A stretch of DNA of 21,907 bases, taken from a virus. A program made the position numbers and the translations under genes. Positions 1,798 through 21,907 of this stretch are shown one piece after another. The notes under the pieces are model-generated. The model ran no database searches. It was not told where the DNA came from and saw only the letters and a list, made by a program, of their open reading frames with translations. Within the stretch, counting starts at the first letter, position 1; the number at the start of each line of letters is the position of its first letter. Where the stretch lies: positions 1-21,907 of IMG/VR virus record IMGVR_UViG_3300036770_002586; one strand, written 5' to 3'.

Positions 1798-1807
1798 CAA
1801 TTTGTTT

Positions 1808-2124
1808 GGTCTAGGTTCCTAGACCCTCCTTGAGAAAGTACAGGTAGTGCTGTGCCGACAGAACTGGAGTAAGGGGTTATCCTCAATACACCGAGAGTGC
1901 AATCGACAAAGCGAACACTCAACAAGCCTATAGCTATTTTGTCTTGATGTTATAGGATGTGCGTTGCCGAAGATATGTTTACAAACATAAGCTTCACTAC
2001 AGGCCATAAACTTTACAGGGCAACCGGTAGGATATACAAGCAGTAAGGCTATGTGTATTGGCAAAGACAACATGGATTGACAGGCATGGCAAGTCAATTT
2101 TGGTAGTGCTGAATAGCACTACCA
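1808..2124 (+). ncRNA. Candidate structured RNA: hairpin-dense non-coding region
   Basis: The longest gene-free stretch of the window. Neither strand shows a convincing gene and the base composition is less AT-rich than the neighbouring genes. Hairpins found by eye: 1808-1815/1818-1825 (8 bp); 1838-1843/1850-1855 (6 bp with one G-U); 1895-1899/1916-1920; 1927-1934/1949-1956 (8 bp with one G-U); 1963-1968/2019-2024 enclosing 1969-1972/1992-1995 and 1974-1980/1983-1989; 2034-2038/2054-2058; 2076-2081/2093-2098; and 2101-2110/2115-2124 (10 bp). The two G-U pairs hold only if the plus strand is transcribed. I could not match it to tmRNA, RNase P RNA, a group I intron core or a tRNA. It could also be a DNA-level element such as a replication origin. 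No promoter was identified; it may be read from the gp46 transcript. Confidence 0.4.
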
Positions 2125-2159
2125 TGGACATCCTAGCGGCAAGTATAAGAAATAAGAAT

Positions 2160-2210
2160 ATAAAAAATAAGACCGAACGAAGTGAGGTCTTAGACGAACG
2201 TAGTTCGTCT
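2160..2210 (-). terminator. Intrinsic terminator after the gp26 frameshift region
   Basis: Read on the minus strand, two hairpins follow the TAA at 2211-2213: an 8-bp stem (2203-2210 with 2192-2199, 3-nt loop), then a 7-bp stem TAAGACC/GGTCTTA (2168-2174 with 2186-2192, sharing the base at 2192), followed by a T-rich tract (TTTTTT after TTA). The second hairpin plus T tract is a classic rho-independent terminator for gp26 transcription. Confidence 0.75.
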
Positions 2211-2441
2211 TTAAAAGAAAGGTAATTGCGATTTCTTAGTAACTTCTAAATTACTATCTATGATTTGATTAATAGCTTTACGTTCATTACTACTCATATT
2301 AAGGATATCTTCGTAACTAGCACCACCTCTCATATACCATGCCATGGTTAATGCATTTTTCTTTATACCCAGTACTTCTTTATCATAACCTGCTATTAGC
2401 TTCTCAACCTCATCTGGGTTAAGACGTAGAAGCCTCAGCCG
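2211..2441 (-). CDS. -1 frame extension of gp26 (gp51-like region), expressed by predicted frameshift
   Basis: A 76-codon open frame following gp26 on the minus strand, reading RLRLLRLNPDEVEKL through AWYMRGGASYEDIL to KKSQLPFF. The upstream stop in this frame is the TGA overlapping the GAT TTT codons of gp26, and there is no ATG, GTG or TTG before the ATG inside the AWYMRGG region, so it cannot be started normally without losing its N-terminal half. A -1 slip on T_TTT_TTC at 2441-2447 joins it directly to gp26 residue F275, giving a 351-residue fusion (2211-3265). I recall similar small conserved proteins after gp26 in marine T4-like phages, where the neighbouring hub gene 51 is a baseplate hub assembly factor; equating this with gp51 is inference. 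Arrangement and sizes resemble the frameshifted tail assembly chaperones of other tailed phages. Confidence 0.75.
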   Translation of the reverse strand, partial: RLRLLRLNPDEVEKLIAGYDKEVLGIKKNALTMAWYMRGGASYEDILNMSSNERKAINQIIDSNLEVTKKSQLPFF

Positions 2442-2447
2442 AAAAAA
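2398..2447 (-). promoter_or_regulatory. Predicted programmed -1 frameshift signal in gp26
   Basis: On the minus strand gp26 ends GAT TTT TTC GGC TGA. The heptamer T_TTT_TTC (2447-2441) fits X_XXY_YYZ exactly in the gp26 frame. After a 6-nt spacer (2440-2435) comes a stem-loop: outer GGCTT (2434-2430) with AAGCT (2402-2398), a 6-nt bulge, and inner CTTAACC (2423-2417) with GGTTGAG (2409-2403) closing a 7-nt loop. The gp26 stop codon lies within the spacer, so non-shifting ribosomes stop almost at once. Confidence 0.75.
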
Positions 2448-3265
2448 TCAGAAGCGTTTAATGTAAAGGGTTGTTTATATTTGTGTGTACAATTGGGACA
2501 TTCAATATCTAATGGTGGTAATTCAGTTTTAGCTTTTAATTCGGCATTATAATCACGTATAATAGTATAGATGTTTTTATCACAATTATGTAAGAAATCT
2601 AAAATATAATTAGGTTCATTAACCTGAGAGGTTGGTGTTTTTATATATTCAATTGCCTTACATAAAATTGTCATAGTAAGTTCAGTAACTTTACGTAATG
2701 CCTCTTGTCCTCTTTTGTTTTTTTCGTCATTATCTTGTACCTGTTCGATTGCAAGAAATGTTCTTTGTACTTCAAATTGTCCTAAACTAGCTTCGTTCAT
2801 TTCTTTATAAGTCAATGGTTTAAACTTAACACCTAATTCACCTATAGTTAATAATTTACTGTAATCAGGAGCTTTCATTCCTGCTAACACACTAATAAGA
2901 TTGATTCCATAATTACTTAAATTTTCACAAGAAGGACATTGTGATTCAATATCAAGTTCATTACCTCCACTTGCTGATTTAATTGCAATAAGAACTGCAT
3001 CTAAATCACTAGAACTAATTTTCCATGGATCTTTAATATTAGGCACGCAGCTTTTTATAAGTTCTACAATGGCTGAACCATTAAAAAGTGCATCAGGTGT
3101 TTTCGTTGTAATTTCATCAATAGCCGTCATTGGATAAACAGGAATTTCACCAGTTACTGGGATATCTATAACACCTTCAGGGTAATCTTTGCCCTCACTT
3201 GGTAACCGCAGAAATACCGCAGGTCTTCTAAAATATTGTTTTAATGGATTGTTTTCAAGCGACAT
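2435..3265 (-). CDS. 26: gp26-like baseplate hub subunit
   Basis: Homologue of the T4 gp26 baseplate hub / hub-assembly family (276 aa; T4 gp26 is 208 aa). Recognisable family blocks in order: RRPAVFLRLPSEGKDYP near residues 13-29, GEIPVYPMTAIDEITTKTPDALFNG near 39-63, and SCVPNIKDPWKISSSDLDAVLIAIKSAS near 72-99. Two CxxC pairs, CPSC at 110-113 and CPNC at 256-259, probably form one zinc ribbon. Start at 3265 is supported by AAAGGA five bases upstream of the ATG, and a late promoter core AATAAATA lies on the minus strand at 3318-3311. It is divergent from the tape-measure-like gene and is followed in the -1 frame by a conserved extension (see the frameshift entries), so it probably makes two products, 276 and 351 residues. 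Confidence 0.88.
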   Translation of the reverse strand: MSLENNPLKQYFRRPAVFLRLPSEGKDYPEGVIDIPVTGEIPVYPMTAIDEITTKTPDALFNGSAIVELIKSCVPNIKDPWKISSSDLDAVLIAIKSASGGNELDIESQCPSCENLSNYGINLISVLAGMKAPDYSKLLTIGELGVKFKPLTYKEMNEASLGQFEVQRTFLAIEQVQDNDEKNKRGQEALRKVTELTMTILCKAIEYIKTPTSQVNEPNYILDFLHNCDKNIYTIIRDYNAELKAKTELPPLDIECPNCTHKYKQPFTLNASDFFG

Positions 3266-3297
3266 GTTTTTCCTTTGGAAATATGTAATATTTGGAT

Positions 3298-3305
3298 ACT
3301 AAATA
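3298..3305 (+). promoter_or_regulatory. T4-type late promoter core for the tape-measure-like gene
   Basis: ACTAAATA, the same octamer found before gp20 (7159), the acidic core gene (9252) and the HNH gene (13235). There are 24 nt to the ATG at 3330. No clear Shine-Dalgarno sequence lies between. Confidence 0.65.
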
Positions 3306-3310
3306 CTATG

Positions 3311-3318
3311 TATTTATT
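3311..3318 (-). promoter_or_regulatory. T4-type late promoter core for gp26
   Basis: Minus-strand AATAAATA, one base from the T4 late consensus TATAAATA. It lies 45 nt upstream of the gp26 ATG and back to back with the plus-strand core at 3298-3305. Confidence 0.65.
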
Positions 3319-3329
3319 GGACAAATCCT

Positions 3330-6300
3330 ATGGCTGAAATAAATGATGAATTAGCTGAAACGCTTAGACGTTTAACTGAAGAAATGGCAAGCATGAATGC
3401 CATTACCCTAGCCAATAATAAAAGTTTACGTGATCAATTAAATGCAGCAGGAAAATTAAGTAAAGGCTTAAGTGATTTATCACATACTATTGAAGAAGAA
3501 AATCAAGTACGTGAAGAAGCTATAGCAAGAGAGCAGGCTTTTAAAAGTGCTCAAAAAAATAGTATTGATGCATTAAGGCAATTTGGTAGCGCAATAACAA
3601 ATGTAACAGATAATAGTTTCAGTAAGTATGAATCAGGTATTAAAAGTGCCACATCAGCCATAAGTGATATTGCTAGTCAATTTGGTCCATTAGGTAAAGC
3701 TATTAGTATGGCAGCGGGTGCAGTTGGAACATTTGCAGGTGCTATATTAAAACAAACCGATGCCGTTGTAAAAGGGTATGATGAATTAAGTAAATTTGGT
3801 GGTAATGTAGGATTAACTGCGGATGGTATTTTTAAGTTAGGCAAAGAAGCAGGATTTAGTAGCTATAATTTAGGCACATTCACGAAAAATATAAAAGATG
3901 CTGGTCAGAATTTAATTGCTTTAGGTAGTACATCAACCGGTGGCATAAAAGCTTTCGCACAATTTACAGCGGTTGGTGAAGATCAATTAAAGGCATATCG
4001 CAGATTAGGATATACACAAGATGAGTTAATTGAAGCACAAAACACTTATTTAAAACAACAATTAGATGGCGGACAACAATTAACTAAAAGTCCAAAAGAA
4101 TTACAAAAAGCTAGTTTAGCTTACATAGATCAACTTAATGTACTTGCTGAATTAACAGGTATTAGTGTTAAAAAACAGCAAGAAGCATTGGATATTGCCA
4201 ATGCAAACGAAAACTTTAATGCATATAAGTTTTCTATGGATCAAAAAGCTTTGGCGTTTGAAGAACAGGCAAGAAAAGAAACCGATGCAGGTAGAAAAAA
4301 AGAATTAGAAGCACAAGCTGCACAAATTAGACAAACTGTTAAAGTAAAAGAAGAATTTGCTTCAGTTGCAGTGAACACCATGTCAGCAGCAAAAGCTGCT
4401 GCTGTGTTAGAATCTATATCTACTGATGGTAAGACAGTGTTAACAGAAAATAATGCTAAATTAGAAATGGCTGGTATTAACATTGTTAAAATGAATGATG
4501 AATTGAACAAAGGTAAAAGTCAAACTGGTAGATTATTGGGTGAACAAGTAACAAGTGCTGAAAAATTTAATAAAGATTTTGGTGAAGCAGGATATAGATT
4601 CGGTAAAGCAAGTAAAGAATTGCAAGACACTTTTGGAATGGACAATAAGAGTCGCCAAACTGCGGCACAATATGCAAAATTAAGAACGGAAGAAGAACAA
4701 AAAGCGTTTGTTGAAAGAATGATCCAAGGTAAAAAAGACCTAGACGAAACTAAAAAAGCAGGTAAAGAAGGTCAAAAAGCAATTGACTCTGCTGCTGCAA
4801 GAGAATCAGGGGAAAGACAATTAAGAAAAGCATTAGATTCTATTATTGATGTTGTTAATCCATTCACAGGTAGTGTAAAAGGTAGTACAGCTGCCGCAGT
4901 TGCGTTGACTGCTGCTGCCGCTGCGGCAACATTTGCATTAGGTAAATTAGCTGCCAGTCAAATGGGAGGACTGGGTGGATTAAAAGACTTAGCAAGTAAG
5001 ATACCTGGATTAGGTGGATTAGGCGGGACAGGTGCAAAAGCAGCAACTACAGTAGCAACAGCCGCAGCTCCTGCAGCAGCTACCGCTGCCACAGGTGCTG
5101 CAAGCACCACTGCAGCCGCTAGTTCAGCAGCAGGAGCCTTAGCTAAATTAGCGGCCCCATTGGCAGGCTTAGCTAAGGCAGCACCTGTTATAGGCACTGT
5201 AGCAGCAGTTGGTAGCGGAATGATAGAAACTTATCAAGGGATTAAAAAAGCTGATAAGGAATTGGAAGAAGGTAAAATAACAAAAGAAGAAGCTAAGGTA
5301 CAAAAAGGTGAAGCTGTTGGTGGTGGAATTGGCACTGCTGCAGGTGGTGCAGCAGGAGCATTAAAAGGTGCTGCAATAGGTGCAGCCCTGGGTAGTGCTG
5401 TCCCTATAGTTGGAAATATAATAGGTGGTTTGTTGGGTGCAGCGGTTGGAGGATGGTTAGGAAGTAAAGCAGGCTCAGTAGTAGGAGAAGTAGTTGGTGG
5501 TAGTGTTGTCAAAATGACACAGGACGCGGACAAAAAAGTTGATGAGTCAGTAAAGAGTGTGGAAGCTAAACGTGAAGCAATTAAAAAGAATCCTAATTCT
5601 AAATCTACATATGAAGTAAACGGACGACAAGTTAGTAAAGAAGAATATGATGCTTTTAACGAACAAATGAAGGCGGAACGTCCAAAACCATTAGAAATGC
5701 CTGATTTGCCTAAAAAGGCTAAAGGCGGTATTACATCTGGTCCAAGTATAGCAGGTGAAGCTGGTCCAGAAGCTGTAGTGCCATTACCTGATAATAAAAC
5801 CATTCCAGTACAAATACAAAGTAATACATTATCAAACGAAACAGAAGATGATGAAGAACTAGAATTTAGAGAAAAATTAAATGAAGAACTAAAAGATAGC
5901 GAATTGACTTTGAAAAAACTTACTGCATCATTGGTACGTTGGGATGATTTAGCTAAAGAACAAATTAAATTAGAAGAAGAAAAGCAAGAAAAAACCGAAG
6001 AATTACAAAAAAGTACAAGTGTCGTAAGTCAGGCATTTAAGTTAGCAAGTATTGATTTAAGTAAGTTTTCTTCTCAAATAAAAGTTAAAATTGAAGAAGG
6101 TAAAGGTACAAAATCATCACCAACAGCACCTAGCACCGCACCGGCTATGTCTTTAAAAGGTAATACAACCACATCAGGCACAGGAATCACGCCAAGTAAA
6201 CAAGCTGGTACAGGTATAACACCTGGAGCAAAAGCAGGAGAAGGTATACAAATTAGTAGAGGACAACAACAAGAGTTATTATTAGGAGAACTTAAAAAAC

Positions 6301-7157
6301 AAGGAATTACTGATAATAGCGCATTGGCAAATATTATGGCTCAGGTTCAAGCAGAGTCAGGGTTTAAACCACGAAGTGAGGAAGTAGGTAGATATTCAGC
6401 TAAAACCTTATATAACTTATACGGTCCTGAACAGAGCAGAAATAAAGTTCGTTTTAAATCAATGGAAGAAGCAGAGTCAGTTGTTTCTCAAGGTCCCGAA
6501 GCGGTTGGCAATTTACTTTATGGTGGTAGAATGGGTAATGCCGCCGATGAAGGTTACAAATACCGAGGACGTGGATTAATTCAACTTACTGGTAAAAGTA
6601 ATTACGAACGATATGGAAAATTGATAGGTGTCGATCTTGTAGAAAACCCAGATTTGGCAAATGACCCCGATATTGCATCAAAGCTTGCTGTTGCATATTT
6701 CAAAGACAAAGAAAAAAGAGGGGTTGATCTTACAGACATAAGAGCAGTTGGTAAAGCTGTAGGCTATGCAGGAGGTGAGGCAGAAACACAAAAACGTGCT
6801 CAGTTAGCACAAGGATTTTCAAGTAAAATACAAGAACAACCAGCAAAAGCACAATTCGGTGGCATATTTTCAGGACCAATGACAGGATATCCTGTAGAAC
6901 TTCACGGTGATGAAGTTGTTGCTCCATTAGATACTAATAGTATGTTAGCAAAAATGCTTACAAGTCCACCAGGGGAACAACAAAAAGAAACAATACAAAC
7001 TATGGCCCCAACTAGTAACGATTTTATGCTTAGAGAAATGCAATCAATGAATGTTGAAATGATGGATATGATTGCAGGTAAACTTGATGCTATGATTGAT
7101 GCATTGGGTACAAGTAATGATTTACAAGGTAAGCTTGTAACATATTCTAGGGTTTAA
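3330..7157 (+). CDS. Tape-measure-like tail protein with GH19 muralytic domain
   Basis: 1275 aa, the largest gene of the window. N-terminal roughly 500 residues are helical and charged, with repeated coiled-coil-like stretches. Residues about 520-730 are Ala/Gly-rich with hydrophobic glycine-zipper segments (PIVGNIIGGLLGAAVGGWLG), likely membrane-active. Two blocks typical of tape measure proteins follow, GEAGPEAVVPLPDN near 810 and ELHGDEVVAPLDTN near 1190. Between them, residues about 975-1167 form a GH19 chitinase/endolysin-like domain: candidate catalytic E1009 in AQVQAESGF, then EEVGRYSAKTLYNLYG and the signature YRGRGLIQLTGKSNYERYG. Role (inference): sets tail length or forms the hub core, and cleaves peptidoglycan during injection. 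T4 keeps these jobs apart: gp29 (590 aa) is the tape measure and gp5 carries a different lysozyme. The neighbouring gp26 supports a tail role. Confidence 0.82.
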   Translation: MAEINDELAETLRRLTEEMASMNAITLANNKSLRDQLNAAGKLSKGLSDLSHTIEEENQVREEAIAREQAFKSAQKNSIDALRQFGSAITNVTDNSFSKYESGIKSATSAISDIASQFGPLGKAISMAAGAVGTFAGAILKQTDAVVKGYDELSKFGGNVGLTADGIFKLGKEAGFSSYNLGTFTKNIKDAGQNLIALGSTSTGGIKAFAQFTAVGEDQLKAYRRLGYTQDELIEAQNTYLKQQLDGGQQLTKSPKELQKASLAYIDQLNVLAELTGISVKKQQEALDIANANENFNAYKFSMDQKALAFEEQARKETDAGRKKELEAQAAQIRQTVKVKEEFASVAVNTMSAAKAAAVLESISTDGKTVLTENNAKLEMAGINIVKMNDELNKGKSQTGRLLGEQVTSAEKFNKDFGEAGYRFGKASKELQDTFGMDNKSRQTAAQYAKLRTEEEQKAFVERMIQGKKDLDETKKAGKEGQKAIDSAAARESGERQLRKALDSIIDVVNPFTGSVKGSTAAAVALTAAAAAATFALGKLAASQMGGLGGLKDLASKIPGLGGLGGTGAKAATTVATAAAPAAATAATGAASTTAAASSAAGALAKLAAPLAGLAKAAPVIGTVAAVGSGMIETYQGIKKADKELEEGKITKEEAKVQKGEAVGGGIGTAAGGAAGALKGAAIGAALGSAVPIVGNIIGGLLGAAVGGWLGSKAGSVVGEVVGGSVVKMTQDADKKVDESVKSVEAKREAIKKNPNSKSTYEVNGRQVSKEEYDAFNEQMKAERPKPLEMPDLPKKAKGGITSGPSIAGEAGPEAVVPLPDNKTIPVQIQSNTLSNETEDDEELEFREKLNEELKDSELTLKKLTASLVRWDDLAKEQIKLEEEKQEKTEELQKSTSVVSQAFKLASIDLSKFSSQIKVKIEEGKGTKSSPTAPSTAPAMSLKGNTTTSGTGITPSKQAGTGITPGAKAGEGIQISRGQQQELLLGELKKQGITDNSALANIMAQVQAESGFKPRSEEVGRYSAKTLYNLYGPEQSRNKVRFKSMEEAESVVSQGPEAVGNLLYGGRMGNAADEGYKYRGRGLIQLTGKSNYERYGKLIGVDLVENPDLANDPDIASKLAVAYFKDKEKRGVDLTDIRAVGKAVGYAGGEAETQKRAQLAQGFSSKIQEQPAKAQFGGIFSGPMTGYPVELHGDEVVAPLDTNSMLAKMLTSPPGEQQKETIQTMAPTSNDFMLREMQSMNVEMMDMIAGKLDAMIDALGTSNDLQGKLVTYSRV

Positions 7158-13171: not shown

Positions 13172-13202
13172 ATCAAAATCTTTTCATTCGGGATGGGAAG
13201 TC

Positions 13203-13227
13203 AAAAAAGCGCCTTGTGCGCTTTTTT
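13203..13227 (+). terminator. Strong intrinsic terminator after gp23
   Basis: Perfect 10-bp stem AAAAAAGCGC (13203-13212) and GCGCTTTTTT (13218-13227) around the loop CTTGT. GC core plus T run is the classic rho-independent form. It lies 31 nt after the gp23 stop; it is symmetric and may also act on the minus strand. Confidence 0.92.
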
Positions 13228-13234
13228 GTTTTGT

Positions 13235-13242
13235 ACTAAATA
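13235..13242 (+). promoter_or_regulatory. T4-type late promoter core for the HNH/protease cassette
   Basis: ACTAAATA, only 7 nt beyond the terminator. Just 4 nt (CTTT) separate it from the ATG at 13247. A second core, AATAAATA at 13256-13263, is also followed after 4 nt by an in-frame ATG (13268). Confidence 0.6.
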
Positions 13243-13246
13243 CTTT

Positions 13247-13615
13247 ATGATTACTAATAAATATTCAATGATTTATAATGATATTATAAATCGTGCTAAA
13301 AATAGAAATTTAAATGGATGTTTTGAATTGCATTCTATTATTCCTATTTGTAGTATTATTGAAGATTTAGAAGGTAGCACAGATTATATTGTTAAGCTTA
13401 CACCAAAAGAAAACTTCATATGTCATTTATGTTTATTAAGAATGGCTGAAAACACTGAATTAAATAGTATAGAACAAAATTTTAATATTTTACTTAACAA
13501 TAGAAGAAAAAAACAAATCACTGCAAGACAATATGAAAGTGAAAAATTAAAATTCCTAGAAAATAAAAATTTGTCTCAAAATATACCATTGGATAATATT
13601 AATAACTATGTCTGA
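13247..13615 (+). CDS. Degenerate HNH-type homing endonuclease-like protein
   Basis: 122 aa from the ATG at 13247; the frame is open back to 13193, but that would run through the terminator, so the start was placed after the late promoter (13268 is an alternative). The block CFELHSIIP followed by DYIVKLTPKENFICHLCLLRM matches the phage HNH family pattern HHIIP...NLVxLTxREHFICHxLLxKM. Residue H29 is kept but the adjacent His of the HHIIP pair is Ser30, the N-L pair is D46-Y47, and REH is KEN, so catalysis is doubtful. The C-terminal half is a basic helix (NNRRKKQITARQYESEKLKFLENK). It is more AT-rich than gp23 and overlaps the protease gene by 8 nt (ATG inside its last codons), which suggests translational coupling. 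Family assignment fairly sure; activity unlikely. Confidence 0.75.
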   Translation: MITNKYSMIYNDIINRAKNRNLNGCFELHSIIPICSIIEDLEGSTDYIVKLTPKENFICHLCLLRMAENTELNSIEQNFNILLNNRRKKQITARQYESEKLKFLENKNLSQNIPLDNINNYV

Positions 13616-16130
13616 TAAAAAAATATATCAAATTTGTACCAATACAGAAAGTGATTGGGACTATGTACATGAAGTATTGACAAGAGATGGTACATTAGAA
13701 GATAATATTCCTACTAGAGGTATCGATTTGGTTGATTTTAAAGAGCATAGTCCTACTAGGTCTACTTATTTGATGACTGAGGAAGAAGCAGAATTATTAA
13801 AACAAAATCCAAGAATTAAGTTTGTTTGTTTGGATTATGCTAGTTACCCTGAATATAAACCACCTAAAGAAGAATTACACACTGTACCATATAGATATGT
13901 TTCTACTGTAAAAAATTACAGAAACTTTTCAAATCCAAGTATTATGCCCACCACGCCAACATCTGCTGATTTAGATAGAGCAGGTTACCAATTACTTAGA
14001 ATGACACAAAAAGAAAATCCATGGTATGGTATTAGCGCACAAACTGTTATACAAAATAAAATACCAAACACTGCTACTGGTATTGGAGTAGATGTTATAG
14101 TAGGAGACGATGGTTGTGATTTTGGTCATGCGGAATTTCAAACTAATACTGGATCAGGACCAGATGATTTAATAGATGGAAACGTATTAAGCAATACTGG
14201 TACCTGTATGTTAGTAGATTTAGTTTTAGAAGCGCCATATTATATTGATCCTGCATGGTTTAATGCTAGCCCAAGCACTAGGTTAACTACTAGATGGGAT
14301 GGTACTACGGTGCCGGTTGAATCAGTAGCAAGAACATGGTGGGGAAATTCATCACAGCGATCAAGTGAATTTAGTAGTGCAGGTACAGTAACAATTACCT
14401 CTAGTTATACAAGGGCAAATTGTAATGGAGATAACTTAAATAGTCCAGGTGAGGGTGATCATGGCACATGTTGCGGTGCTTTAACCTATGGTAGGACACA
14501 AGGATGGGCGTACAATGCTAATAAGTTTTTTATTAATGTATACGGAACTTACGGAGCAGGTATCGAACAATATTTTGACCTAGTAAAAATATTTCATCAA
14601 ATTAAACCTATTAACCCTACATATGGCACAAGAAATCCAACAATATGTAGTAATAGTTGGGGCTACAGAGCGGTACAAGGAAGTTCAGGTGGTGCATATT
14701 ATTTTAGACAAGGAACTACTGGTCAAGGAGGCGTGACATTTACTGGAGCAAGTAAGCCTGCTTTTATGCAATATTTAGGAAGTACAGGAGACGCTGGTAG
14801 ATTTAAAGGTGAAATGTTAGATAATAGCTTTACTGAAGCAGGCAATGAATTAATCCAAGCAGGCGTCATTTTTGTAGCAGCAGCAGGAAACAGTAATCAA
14901 CAACAAGTAGGATCAGATCAACCAGATTATAATAATTATTGGGCTAGTGGTCTTAATATAGAATTATCCAAGGCAACGCATTCAGAATTTGGTTTAACAT
15001 GCTATAATACAACAAGTCGTAGAGGTTTCCCTCAACAATTGGGGAAATACACATCAAATGGACAAGTAGTTTATCCTGCAATTAATATAGGAGCATTAGA
15101 TGATCAAAATATGTCAGACGGGAAAGAACGAAAAGTAAATTATAGTGATATGGGTGATCAAATTGATGTATATGCTCCCGCAGATGGAACAATGGCAGCT
15201 AATCGTGGGTATACTCCTGAATATTTAAGACCAGACACTTACCCAGGATCAGGTGCACCACAGGGTTTTACTGCACTTTGTAATGCTATTGCAAGATTAA
15301 ATGGTACCTCAAGCTTTAATGCTGAGCCAAACACAGGCTGGAGGCTTATCACTACTAGTGATACCACTGCTACATTAACTTCTATTCCTAGTGACTTAAA
15401 AGGGTCAGCAGGATTAAGTTTATTATCTATATCAGGTGGAGATAATGATGACGGTTATTATGGAGTAAACATATCAGGTGGAGGTGGATTTACTATAACA
15501 TTTGCAAATTCTACATTTGGTAATGTTTTTATTTCAACTAACAGTTTAGTAACTTTTACATCAGGGTATATTGATTTAACTTTTAATGAATCTACACCAA
15601 CTATGCGTAAAATTTGCATTAGTGCGGATGATAATAGTTGTCAACGTTGTTATGGTGGGTTTGAAGGCAGTTCTCCTAATCGTAGAATAAGATTTAGATT
15701 TGAAGGAACTAATGATATATCAGGGGTTGTTGGTAGTCCCAACATGGTATGGGAATTAACATTATACGAAAATGCTAGAAGTCAATTTGATATACAAATT
15801 GGAGAAAACGCTAGGTACACCACCGATGCATCCTTTTTTGATGCATCTTTTGGAGGAACAAGTGCTGCTTGTCCTGTATCTACAGGGTTTATAGCTACTA
15901 AATTAGAATCAAATAGAAATTGGACTTGGCAAGATGTAAGAAGCTATTTACAGTCAATTTCTATACAAGATGAAAGTAAATTTTATCAAGGACCAACCCC
16001 AACAACTGCCACAAGTTCTGATTGGGCAGATTTAAACAGTTTGATGGGAGGTACTAGGAGAGTCTTATATAATCCTCAAACGTTAACAATTAGTAATGTA
16101 TCGTTTACTGAGGGTATAAACATTACATAA
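13608..16130 (+). CDS. Subtilisin-like serine protease (S8) with propeptide and inserted beta-rich domain
   Basis: 840 aa. Residues 45-80 (RSTYLMTEEEAELLKQNPRIKFVCLD) resemble an inhibitor I9 propeptide. The catalytic triad is intact: D167 in VIVGDDGCDFGH, H285 in GDHGTCCG, S752 in GGTSAACP; the oxyanion Asn is N428 in VAAAGNSN, with SNSWG at 348-352. N428 and S752 are 324 residues apart, against 66 in subtilisin. Most of the excess falls at about 560-740, a Gly/Asn/Ser-rich, probably beta-sandwich segment with blocks like CISADDNSCQRCYGGFEGSSPNRR that I recall from marine phage virion proteins. No signal peptide. Position between the capsid and fibre genes suggests a virion-associated protease or a processing enzyme; the substrate is unknown. 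Its ATG overlaps the HNH gene by 8 nt, and its stop lies 4 nt from the stop of the convergent gene. Confidence 0.88.
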   Translation: MSDKKIYQICTNTESDWDYVHEVLTRDGTLEDNIPTRGIDLVDFKEHSPTRSTYLMTEEEAELLKQNPRIKFVCLDYASYPEYKPPKEELHTVPYRYVSTVKNYRNFSNPSIMPTTPTSADLDRAGYQLLRMTQKENPWYGISAQTVIQNKIPNTATGIGVDVIVGDDGCDFGHAEFQTNTGSGPDDLIDGNVLSNTGTCMLVDLVLEAPYYIDPAWFNASPSTRLTTRWDGTTVPVESVARTWWGNSSQRSSEFSSAGTVTITSSYTRANCNGDNLNSPGEGDHGTCCGALTYGRTQGWAYNANKFFINVYGTYGAGIEQYFDLVKIFHQIKPINPTYGTRNPTICSNSWGYRAVQGSSGGAYYFRQGTTGQGGVTFTGASKPAFMQYLGSTGDAGRFKGEMLDNSFTEAGNELIQAGVIFVAAAGNSNQQQVGSDQPDYNNYWASGLNIELSKATHSEFGLTCYNTTSRRGFPQQLGKYTSNGQVVYPAINIGALDDQNMSDGKERKVNYSDMGDQIDVYAPADGTMAANRGYTPEYLRPDTYPGSGAPQGFTALCNAIARLNGTSSFNAEPNTGWRLITTSDTTATLTSIPSDLKGSAGLSLLSISGGDNDDGYYGVNISGGGGFTITFANSTFGNVFISTNSLVTFTSGYIDLTFNESTPTMRKICISADDNSCQRCYGGFEGSSPNRRIRFRFEGTNDISGVVGSPNMVWELTLYENARSQFDIQIGENARYTTDASFFDASFGGTSAACPVSTGFIATKLESNRNWTWQDVRSYLQSISIQDESKFYQGPTPTTATSSDWADLNSLMGGTRRVLYNPQTLTISNVSFTEGINIT

Positions 16131-16596: not shown

Positions 16597-19566
16597 ATGT
16601 CATCAGATCCATTTAATTCGGCCGGTGGTTTTAGCGCAAGTATACCACCTATTACTGTTGTTGATGCCAATGGTAACGTTGTTACTAATATTGATACCAC
16701 AGGAAATGTAGCTGCCAACAATATTTATGGTAATAACTTTTATTGGGCAAATGGACAACCCTTTACGCCTGGTGGTGGACAAGGAATACAAGGTGTACAG
16801 GGTATTCAAGGATTTTATGGTTTACAAGGACTTCAAGGTATATCTGGAACAGGAACACAGGGTATACAAGGTACGATAGGTTTACAGGGTGATATAGGTT
16901 TACAAGGGTTACAAGGTATTGCAGGATCTACTGCGGCGCAAGGTATACAAGGTATAACTGGTAATCAAGGTATTACAGGTAGTCAAGGTGTACAAGGTGT
17001 AACTGGTAGCCAAGGTGTACAAGGGATAACTGGTAGTCAAGGTATTACAGGGAGTCAAGGTGTACAAGGTTTAACTGGTAGCCAAGGTGTACAAGGGATA
17101 ACTGGTAGTCAAGGTATACAAGGACTTCAAGGTGTACAAGGTGTAACCGGTAGTCAAGGCGTACAAGGCGTACAAGGTGTAACCGGTAGTCAAGGCGTAC
17201 AAGGACTTCAAGGCGTACAAGGACTTCAAGGCGTACAAGGCGTACAAGGACTTCAAGGCGTACAAGGCGTACAAGGACTTCAAGGCGTACAAGGACTTCA
17301 AGGCGTACAAGGCGTACAAGGACTTCAAGGCGTACAAGGCGTTCAGGGAACACAGGGTGTACAAGGTGTACAAGGAATACAGGGTATTCAAGGCGTTCAG
17401 GGAACACAGGGTGTACAAGGTGTACAAGGAATACAGGGTATTCAAGGAATACAAGGAACACAAGGACTGCAAGGTACTACTATTGCACTTACTGTAAGTC
17501 AAGGAAATATCACAGGCGGAAATATAATAAATGTAGTTTCAAATGTTTCTGGTTTAATTTTTGATACCGATACTGGTTTCAACGTCACAGATTTGGGTGC
17601 AGGTAATGTTGTAGTATCATTGGGAAGTACATTTAAAACTTGGGAAGTTAATGGTCAACCAAGTCTCGTTGCTGTAGGTGAAGATACAGTTGAGTTTATT
17701 GCCGGTAATGGTATTGTAATTACTACAGATCCAAATTCGACTCCTCAAAGTATTACTTTTTCTTCTACCGGTGGTAGTGGATCAGAAATTAGCAATGGCA
17801 ATAGTAATGTTAACATAGCTAATGCTGATGGTAATATTACTTTTGCAGCAAATGGTATAGCAAATGTCATGACAGTTGGAGAAACAGGAGTATATATACC
17901 TAACACCTCGGGTGGTGCTACAAACATTCAACTAGGTGATCCAACACAAGGAAATTTAGTTACAAATGCAGTATCACTTACAAATTCATCATCAGTAAGT
18001 AATGCTATTGCACAATTAAACAACGTATTAGGTAAACTAGTTCCACCAAGTCCAAATAATTTCCCTGGTGGGCAAACATTAACTATTTCTAGTTTGTCAA
18101 CATATCGTATGGCAAATTTTGTACAAACAGATAATACACCAGGAGCCAACAAATCAGTTTCAGGCGGCACCACTGTAACTTCAGTTAGAAGAGCCAGTTC
18201 TTATACTACTTCAAACATTGCAAATGTTGGCCCAGGTGATCAAGGTACAATTACTGCATTTTTAAATGGTACTGATTCTGGTAATCGAACATTAACTACA
18301 TCATTGGATGGAAATGGAACATATAGTAACTTAGTAATTTTCAATAATTATGATTATAATGTTGTCAATGCAAATATTGCAGCAGGTTTTTGGTCAGTAT
18401 TTTCTAGTAGAGCAAGTGGTACAGTAACCGAAGGATGGAATGAAGTAAAAATTGCAGATAGTGCTACAAGTAATACTAATACTCCAAGTTGGTATTATGA
18501 TAGTAGTGCACCAGGTACACCTGCATTCAGTAATGTAAGTTTTTCAGCTCCTGGATCACCAACTTATACATATTCAAGTACTGTACCTCACTATCCAAAT
18601 ACAAATCAGTTTACAGCAAACTTTGAAGTTAATCGATTAAGCGGAAATATGTATCCAACAAGTGACACATTTATAACTGGTACAGCAGCAGGTGCATTTG
18701 CTGCTCCTGCAAGTGTAACATATGCTACAGCAGGTGTTACAACACCCTTAGCACAAAATTTATATGTAAGTTCAGGAACACAATTAGTTTCAACAACTGC
18801 AAACATCACGTCAGGGTTTGGTGCAAGTAGTAGCAGTCCAACTGTAAGTGCTAATAATAGTTATAATGTTGGTACACAATCATTATCTCCTGGTGCTAAT
18901 ATACTTTACAAAACTGGCACATCCAGTACAATGGAAGAAGCAAATATTGTTATTACCGGTACTGTTGGTGTTGGATCGGGATTGGCATTTAGAATTGATA
19001 ATCCAGGATCAACAGATACTCCTAGTTTTTCAGCAAGTGCTACTGCGTTTAATAGTCAAACAGGACCGTTACAAACATATGATGCAACAATAGTTGCAGC
19101 AATAATGAAACACGATATTACAAATTATGCTACTGGATATTTACCAGTAGGACCAAATTTGAGTAGCGGTAGAGGTGGTTCACAATACTTTACTTTTAAG
19201 TTCATTAGAACCTCACTGTCAAAGTTTGATTTTAAATGGACAGGCACATTGGCTGGATTATGGGTAGCATTACCAGGAAGCACAATAGATTCTACATCTA
19301 CATTAAATGGTTGGTTAGATTTAAGTTTAGCATATGCTGGTGCAGGTGTACCTGGAGCTAACACAGATGCAGGTGGAAATGGTAGTAATGGAGCAGCATT
19401 AGGTGGAGTAGCTCCATTAAATTCTGCTCAAACAAATAAAGCAATAACAGCAACATTTGGTACAGTAAGTTCATCAAGTACAGGAACAAATGAAATTTAT
19501 GTTCGTATCAAATTAACAAGTGGACAGAGTATCACAGCATTTAGTTTACAAGCAGCAAGCAATTAA
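16597..19566 (+). CDS. Collagen-like tail fibre protein 1
   Basis: 989 aa. Residues 1-58 are a short N-terminal domain ([21 protein letters not shown], then [15 protein letters not shown]) of a type I recall at the N-terminus of marine phage fibres, probably the virion attachment part. Residues about 59-294 are a Gly-X-X array, first mixed (GITGSQGVQ), then almost pure Gly-X-Gln. Residues about 300-600 are Asn/Thr/Ser-rich beta structure ([22 protein letters not shown] near 465-486). The C-terminal part contains blocks such as [52 protein letters not shown] and [37 protein letters not shown], which recur, as I remember, in cyanophage fibre C-termini and probably form the receptor-binding trimer. 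Intact; 12 nt separate its stop from the next fibre gene. Confidence 0.85.
16773..17475 (+). repeat. Gly-X-Gln coding array in fibre 1
   Basis: Nine-base periodic array GGN-NNN-CAR. The 5' part alternates with Gly-X-Thr-Gly-Ser-Gln units; 17200-17337 is built of 18- and 27-bp units (GGACTTCAAGGCGTACAA, with or without an extra GGCGTACAA). Leu is mostly CTT and Val mostly GTA. Confidence 0.9.
17338..17445 (+). repeat. Exact 54-bp tandem duplication in fibre 1
   Basis: 17338-17391 and 17392-17445 are identical over 54 bases, including the mixture of CAA and CAG codons, so the duplication is recent. Each copy encodes 18 residues (six Gly-X-Gln triplets, X = V, T, V, V, I, I). Confidence 0.9.
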
Positions 19567-19578
19567 GGATAATAAGTA

Positions 19579-21907
19579 ATGTCAATTTCACAAAGTCAAA
19601 AATTAGACCTACTCTATAAGCAGGCATTTGGTGTTACAAAAACGGACACAGAGGCAAATAAGAGCCCAAGTAATGAATCTATTCCAAGCCCATTACTTAT
19701 AAGAGGAGATACTGTTTGGGTAGAGGCTGATCAAATACCAGCTATAGCAGCAGATGTGCCTGGATATGTACAAGGATATACAGGAACAGGTGCTATTCAA
19801 TGTGTTGCAGACACTACTACGGTTCCCATTGGAGGTATTTATCCAACATGGTTGACAAATTTGACATATTGGATTCCTCAAGAATTTGGCTCAACTTACT
19901 TAGTTAAAACATATGTTGATAACCCAGGTGCAATTAACCCAGAGATTACTGGTACACAAATTTTTGATGCAGGATCAAGTGGTACAGGTGAATATTGGTT
20001 CAATTACCAGTCTGGTGTATTGAACTTTATTGGAAATACTATTCCAACAGCATTAACATCAGGTAAAGTCATTTATGTTGTCGGGTATCGTTATATTGGT
20101 ACAGTAGGATTATCTGGAGGAGGTGGTGGTCAAGGATTACAAGGTATTCAAGGGTATCAAGGATTACAAGGTGTTCAAGGGATATTAGGTAGTCAAGGAA
20201 CACAAGGACTACAGGGAGTTCAAGGAGTTCAAGGACTACAAGGTACACAAGGACTACAGGGTGTTCAAGGAGTTCAGGGAACACAAGGCACACAAGGCGT
20301 TCAAGGACTACAAGGCGTTCAAGGACTACAAGGCGTTCAAGGACTACAAGGCGTTCAAGGTACACAAGGACTACAGGGTGTACAAGGCGTACAAGGCACA
20401 CAAGGACTACAGGGAGTTCAAGGTACACAAGGACTACAGGGTGTTCAAGGTACACAAGGCACTCAGGGAGTACAAGGTACACAAGGCGTTCAAGGTACAC
20501 AAGGCGTTCAAGGCACACAAGGACTACAGGGTGTTCAAGGTACACAAGGCGTACAAGGCACACAAGGCGTTCAAGGCACACAAGGACTACAGGGAGTTCA
20601 AGGTACACAAGGACTACAAGGCGTACAAGGTACACAAGGCGTTCAAGGAACACAAGGTACACAAGGTACACAAGGTGTTCAAGGAACACAAGGCGTACAA
20701 GGACTACAAGGAACACAAGGTGTACAAGGACTACAAGGCGTTCAAGGCACACAAGGACTACAGGGTGTACAAGGTACACAAGGCGTCCAAGGTACACAGG
20801 GTGTACAAGGCGTTCAAGGCACACAAGGCGTACAAGGAACACAAGGCGTACAAGGCGTTCAAGGTACACAAGGCGTTCAAGGTACACAAGGACTACAAGG
20901 CGTTCAAGGTACACAAGGCGTCCAAGGTACACAGGGTGTACAAGGCGTTCAAGGCACACAAGGCGTACAAGGCATTCAAGGTACACAAGGCGTTCAAGGT
21001 ACACAAGGACTACAGGGTGTTCAAGGTACACAAGGCGTACAAGGCACACAAGGCGTACAGGGTACACAAGGCGTACAGGGTACACAGGGCGTACAAGGTA
21101 CACAAGGCGTACAAGGCATACAAGGCGTTCAAGGTACACAAGGCGTTCAAGGTACACAAGGCGTTCAAGGAACACAAGGCGTACAGGGTACACAGGGCGT
21201 ACAAGGTACACAAGGCGTTCAAGGTACACAGGGCGTACAAGGTACACAAGGCGTACAAGGTACACAGGGCGTACAAGGTACACAAGGCGTACAAGGTACA
21301 CAAGGAACACAGGGAGTACAAGGACTACAGGGAGTACAAGGACTACAGGGAGTTCAAGGTACACAAGGCGTTCAAGGTACACAAGGCGTTCAAGGTACAC
21401 AAGGCATACAAGGCATACAAGGCGTACAAGGACTACAGGGAGTTCAAGGAACACAAGGCGTTCAAGGTACACAAGGCACACAAGGCGTTCAAGGTACACA
21501 AGGCACACAAGGCGTACAAGGACTACAGGGAGTTCAAGGTACACAAGGCGTTCAAGGTACACAAGGTACACAAGGCACACAAGGCGTTCAAGGTACACAA
21601 GGCGTACAAGGCACACAAGGCGTTCAAGGTACACAAGGCGTACAAGGTACACAAGGAACACAGGGAGTACAAGGACTACAGGGAGTTCAAGGTACACAAG
21701 GACTACAAGGCACACAAGGCGTTCAAGGTACACAAGGAACACAGGGAGTACAAGGACTACAGGGAGTTCAAGGTACACAAGGCGTTCAAGGTACACAAGG
21801 CATACAAGGCATACAAGGAGTACAAGGACTACAGGGAGTTCAAGGTACACAAGGCGTTCAAGGTACACAAGGCACACAAGGCGTTCAAGGTACACAAGGA
21901 ACACAGG
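19579..21907 (+). CDS. Collagen-like tail fibre protein 2 (3'-truncated by window)
   Basis: At least 776 codons, open to the window end. AAGGA at 19565-19569 overlaps the stop of fibre 1 and precedes the ATG by 9 nt, so the two genes are probably cotranscribed. Residues 1-180 form an N-terminal domain beginning [21 protein letters not shown] and continuing with [42 protein letters not shown] and [19 protein letters not shown] to [16 protein letters not shown] recall this domain from marine T4-like phage virion proteins, where it is probably the virion-attachment end. From about residue 184 to the window end all is Gly-X-Gln, roughly 197 triplets, X almost always V, T, L or I. The C-terminal receptor-binding part is outside the window. 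Confidence 0.85.
20128..21907 (+). repeat. Long Gly-X-Gln coding array in fibre 2 (continues past window)
   Basis: At least 1.78 kb of period-9 DNA (GGN-NNN-CAR) staying in the same frame throughout. Units such as GGTACACAAGGCGTTCAA recur many times, and longer blocks reappear, for example near 21403-21449 and 21799-21845 (differing at one base over most of the length). Leu is CTA or TTA, never the CTT used in fibre 1. I saw no proline or charged residue in it. Confidence 0.92.

Follow-up and report, generated by a model that had tools for sequence, protein, structure and literature searches.

Gene 26 of this phage is in all probability a tail assembly chaperone gene carrying a programmed −1 ribosomal frameshift, which, judged from sequence, would yield a short and a long form of its product. 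The window, that is, the entire 21.9-kb virus record analyzed here, holds a T4-like head and tail gene cluster in which the portal, prohead protease, and capsid genes occupy the plus strand and gene 26 the minus strand (Table 1). The original prediction of a gp26-extension fusion made by frameshifting is supported at this level by conservation of the signal, and its coordinates and lengths (276 aa, 76 codons, and 351 aa) all hold. According to the proposed mechanism, the majority of ribosomes would read T_TTT_TTC, add one residue, and stop at TGA, giving the short form. A fraction would pause at a stem-loop that starts 7 nt past the heptamer, the two tRNA-Phe would re-pair one base back (on TTT TTT), and a further 76 codons would be translated to give a long form that has its first 275 residues in common with the short one. 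Both forms would then act together on the tape measure protein during building of the baseplate hub and tail. In T4 and its close relatives, the two products would instead be encoded by a pair of paralogs, gene 26 for the short form and gene 51 for the long one. We infer the slippage itself, its rate, and the chaperone role of the products.

Table 1. Features of the gene 26 locus (window coordinates)
Feature	Position	Strand	Evidence or remark
Gene 26, short form, 276 aa; T4 gp26-type baseplate hub / tail assembly chaperone N-domain	2435..3265	−	PF12322, phrog_150, AlphaFold2
Slippery heptamer T_TTT_TTC	2441..2447	−	Sequence; phase kept in 153/153 loci; no synonymous change at either codon (obs/exp 0.00)
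Zero-frame TGA stop of the short form, one codon past the heptamer	2435..2437	−	Sequence; equal distance in 145/153 loci
Probable stimulatory stem-loop (outer 2433-2428/2404-2399, inner 2427-2422/2412-2407)	2399..2433	−	Covariation, synonymous suppression
Extension in the −1 frame (76 codons past the slip at 2441-2214, TAA stop at 2213-2211)	2211..2447	−	Long form 351 aa
Divergent neighbor, probable tape measure protein with GH19/lysozyme-like domain	3330..7157	+	PHROG and Glyco_hydro_19 matches

The short form matches PF12322 (T4_baseplate) with an E value of 3.9e-14 and a score of 53.3 bits, which exceeds the curated cut-off of 24.5, and matches the baseplate hub family phrog_150 (E 1.9e-14). 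Its AlphaFold2 model is an alpha/beta structure (pLDDT 90), and its CxxC pairs are invariant. Comparison with solved structures by sequence and Foldseek gave nothing significant. The HK97 tail assembly chaperone gp13 (2OB9) aligned to gp26 over 100 of 107 residues with a Z score of 5.5 and an rmsd of 4.5, a suggestive match that falls below the level at which the aligner is to be trusted. The product of the divergent neighbor matches the tape measure families phrog_794 (E 2e-11) and phrog_167 (E 5e-6) as well as Glyco_hydro_19 (E 1.5e-9), and a tape measure gene is found in the same position in RaK2, 121Q, and PA5oct. Tail assembly chaperones are typically recognized by a short and a long form of one protein encoded next to the tape measure gene, the arrangement predicted here. 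In T4, both gp26 and gp51 figure among the hub assembly chaperones, and the finished particle lacks gp51 although this protein is needed (PMC3004832). The 64-nt spacer that separates gp26 and the tape measure gene (3266-3329) contains CTAAATA on one strand and AATAAATA on the other, motifs similar to T4-type late promoters, and AAAGGA precedes the gp26 ATG within it. A scan for sigma-70 promoters found nothing above shuffled sequence.

The 3′ end of gene 26 reads GAT TTT TTC GGC TGA. As had been claimed, the gene ends on an in-phase T_TTT_TTC, a heptamer of the X_XXY_YYZ type in phase for a −1 slip and preceding the zero-frame stop. Two scans of viral contigs gave 156 gp26 sequences including the window, of which 153 have a readable end; many of these loci are near-duplicates, and they reduce to 92 distinct 60-mers and 87 distinct 78-codon extensions. 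TTTTTTC was kept in phase at every one of the 153 ends, the outcome expected of a functional signal in the original prediction, and the zero-frame stop lies three codons farther away in the eight loci that do not share the spacing of the window. A match to the extension was detected in 150 loci, each time in the −1 frame. Across the 87 unique extensions, no synonymous change was seen at either slippery codon, whereas phenylalanine elsewhere in gp26 is encoded 587 times by TTT and 297 times by TTC. In the window, a −1-frame TGA sits immediately 5′ of the heptamer, which is therefore the very point at which this frame opens. This frame is closed directly upstream of the heptamer in 80 of the 153 loci, the window among them; in these there can therefore be no upstream start, and entry has to occur within about 10 nt.

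A conserved stem, composed of 6 bp outer and 6 bp inner helices, begins 7 nt past the heptamer, inside the 5–9 nt range for stimulatory RNA structures. A stem-loop had been proposed here with 5 bp outer and 7 bp inner helices, and its existence is borne out. The inner stem is imperfect in the window itself, and the conserved form differs from the minimum-energy fold of the window. When the two-part structure was counted on 83 distinct junctions, aligned gap-free, it was paired in 82.3% of cells, against 41–56% when slid by one to three columns, and contained 96 compensatory double-change cells, against 46.2 in shuffles (0/500). RNAalifold returned no consensus structure for the same 83-row junction alignment, and for the window by itself the fold is only a modest improvement on shuffled sequence (z −1.3). 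These two results weigh against a strong folding-energy claim but leave the comparative evidence untouched. Near the slippery site, neither a frameshift element nor a tRNA turned up in Rfam and tRNA scans.

Synonymous change in the 87 unique extensions was also suppressed in the outer stem. Observed/expected values were 0.24 and 0.12 for the codons of the 5′ arm and 0.46 and 0.05 for those of the 3′ arm, with values of 0.85–0.99 in blocks outside the heptamer and stem. Within the interval 2398-2447, in which suppression had been anticipated, it is thus located at the heptamer and the outer arms. Since the suppression is confined to the heptamer and stem arms and the ratio is about 1 elsewhere, selection acts on the signal as RNA. 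With the heptamer in phase throughout, the conservation of this junction is, at the level of sequence comparison, far beyond chance.

The extension itself evolves as a protein by the pattern of its substitutions. Its frame is open in 87/87 unique relatives, and the other two frames hold 7–8 stops each. Over extension codons 22–76, the −1 frame has a mean pS of 0.78, a mean pN of 0.28, and a pN/pS of 0.36, compared with pN/pS values of 1.13 and 1.54 for the other two frames over the same codons. An alignment of 64 rows has a mean column identity of 62%, and conservation begins right at the slip (FFR..LL) and extends through AWYMRGG.SYEDILNMS..ER. The AlphaFold2 model of the extension is all-helical and confident (pLDDT 89). 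A Pfam or PHROG identity was sought for the extension with no confident match; pooled members gave only weak matches to PHROGs without known function.

The same features bear on other explanations of the broken frame. The extension could be a separate small gene, with its own or a coupled start at the gp26 stop, beside which the heptamer would be incidental. Phosso and Atu_ph07 do have an ATGA overlapping the gp26 stop, and the annotations of P-SSM2 and KVP40 show a separate 'gp51' gene and a separate ORF, respectively. However, the first ATG, GTG, or TTG in the −1 frame of the window is an ATG 102 nt in, just 5′ of the AWYMRGG block, and it has no Shine-Dalgarno match, in agreement with the earlier claim that no usable start precedes that region. 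A usable start is generally lacking in the relatives as well, where start positions vary and most have no Shine-Dalgarno match. Protein conservation starts immediately past the heptamer, incidental Phe-Phe codons would not be fixed as TTT TTC, and we regard a separate gene as very improbable.

Transcriptional slippage on the T6 run, in place of ribosomal slippage, could also produce the long form. The heptamer has six T residues, and the run is longer in HTVC008M, Cr30, and phiM12. For polymerase slippage, however, the run is a short one, and the phase of T_TTT_TTC, the C that is fixed in the clade of the window, and the covarying stem 7 nt downstream fit tandem tRNA slippage, so transcriptional slippage seems very unlikely. 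The only point in favor of an artifact, with one longer ORF interrupted by a sequencing indel or by gene decay, is the frame break itself. Across many assemblies, 153 loci break at one and the same codon, a dozen named phages show the break too, and both frames are under selection; this reading is scarcely credible and can be taken as refuted. Programmed −1 ribosomal frameshifting is the preferred explanation.

Frameshift sites of this kind are found well beyond the immediate relatives of the window. T_TTT_TTC and a −1 extension are kept in Phosso, Atu_ph07, 121Q, PA5oct, and RaK2, where the extension is annotated as a separate hypothetical protein or truncated ORF, or is absent from the annotation. 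The same combination is present in P-SSM2, S-PM2, DLP6, KVP40, and phiW-14, and T_TTT_TTT with a −1 extension in HTVC008M, Cr30, and phiM12. The suggestion that the arrangement is not usually described for T4-like baseplates needs amending, as the same kind of site recurs in cyanophages, KVP40, and phiM12-type and RaK2-type phages. The gp26-type gene of Salmonella phage Vi01 ends GAA ATT TTC ATT TAA, and a −1 extension is present; the site there is A_ATT_TTC, with no classical heptamer.

Among frameshift phages with long or complete genomes, PF12322 is found in one gene each (Phosso, Atu_ph07, 121Q, PA5oct, P-SSM2, S-PM2, KVP40, RaK2, and others), whereas T4 has two such genes, encoding gp26 and gp51. 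A profile of eight cyanophage/KVP40-type extensions matches the C-terminal ends of the gp51 proteins of T4, Krischvirus, Aeromonas 31, RB43, KARL-1, and phiP4-3, and gave no match to the gp26 proteins. The P-SSM2/KVP40-type extensions match gp51 C-termini with E values of 1e-5 to 1e-11 in a search of ten sequences only, and this similarity, 40 residues long, is also remarked on in the KVP40 record. Direct homology between the window extension and gp51 was considered and is weak; the link is drawn instead through the other T4-like extensions, to which the window extension is itself weakly similar (hhalign probability 17%, E 0.0015). By position, and less strongly by sequence, the extension is best read as the counterpart of the C-terminal part of T4 gp51, and on this resemblance the pair would best be interpreted as short and long tail assembly chaperones.

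In a midpoint-rooted tree, gp26 and gp51 form a sister pair (92/79) adjoining KVP40 and nested among frameshift phages, with moderate support at these forks. This nesting favors frameshifting as the ancestral state and duplication as the derived one. T4 has probably split the short and long chaperones by a later duplication, which would be the origin of its helper genes 26 and 51. We lean toward the broader proposal that the −1 frameshift is ancestral in the whole T4 superfamily and that gp26 and gp51 are short and long isoforms duplicated after the KVP40 lineage branched. If this is true, the 'hub assembly catalyst' gp51 is a long chaperone whose ratio to gp26 matters, not an enzymatic activity. 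The comparison gives the T4 pair a testable origin.

Conserved frameshifting of tail chaperone genes has been recognized since Xu, Hendrix and Duda 2004 (as cited in PMC9024508 and PMC10885494). Chaperone genes of T4-like phages were identified by Vladimirov, Gautam and Davidson (2022, Virology 566:9, as cited in PMC10885494 and PMC12846349). Following that work, PMC10885494 describes some T4-like phages in which a short gene is accompanied by a long, fused one in place of frameshifting, and poly-T slippery sites in the chaperone genes of T4-like phages are attributed to the same work in PMC12846349. Pakpunavirus Adele and the Vandenendeviridae likewise have a conserved poly-T site ending the tail chaperone gene, with the −1 frame open in all genomes, but the motif is GTTTTT and the phage families are different (PMC12846349).

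The locus resembles lambda gpG/gpGT in that the two forms would have a common N-terminus through a slip near the gene end and the gene adjoins the tape measure gene. The lambda slippery site is G_GGA_AAG. The window differs in having T_TTT_TTC, a PF12322 family protein, and divergence from the tape measure gene, in place of the single operon with the chaperone gene upstream as in lambda. T4 gp26 and gp51 have the PF12322 domain, and gp51 bears the C-terminal extension found in the −1 frame of other T4-like phages. In T4, however, these are two divergent genes, gene 26 ending GAG TTC TTT GAG with no slippery site, whereas both forms are predicted to come from one gene in the window. KVP40.0327/KVP40.0328 and P-SSM2 gp26/gp51 are closer: gp26 is adjacent to a short ORF resembling the gp51 C-terminus, with T_TTT_TTC at the junction, but they are annotated as two genes with no frameshift fusion. 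Tail-chaperone frameshifting, T4-like slippery sites included, has thus been published, and what is new is this strongly documented example, well supported by sequence comparison. It adds a large, mostly uncultivated T4-like clade and several cultured jumbo phages to those with predicted frameshifting tail chaperones, and the RNA-level evidence (synonymous suppression and covariation) is unusually clean. It would also explain the absence of a separate gp51 in these genomes and correct annotations that miss or split the extension.

Several other features of the window merit description. Between a PDDEXK/RusA-like gene and the gp26 extension lies a non-coding region of ∼410 nt (1798-2210, plus strand) that is conserved and covarying. 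It folds with a z score of −5.0, has nhmmer matches (E<1e-10) in the window and its relatives, 130 records in all, and gave 63 RNAalifold pairs, 38 of them with compensatory double changes. It matched nothing in Rfam even at E<=5, and its core pattern is absent from cellular genome contigs. The region has the look of a large, structured plus-strand phage RNA that is as yet undescribed and, among the features of this stretch, may be more novel than the frameshift. A hairpin at 2192-2210, AGACGAACGTAGTTCGTCT, directly follows the stop codon of the extension and is also the 3′ end of the structured region; it is possibly a bidirectional terminator between convergent units. Directly 3′ of the major capsid gene is a homing-endonuclease-like ORF of 140 aa (13193-13615), and an 840-aa protein with subtilisin-like motifs (GHGT, GTSAACP) is encoded at 13608-16130, downstream of the capsid gene. 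The genes at 16597-19566 and 19579-21906 encode two long proteins, probably fibers, in which collagen-like G-x-Q-G repeats are extensive.
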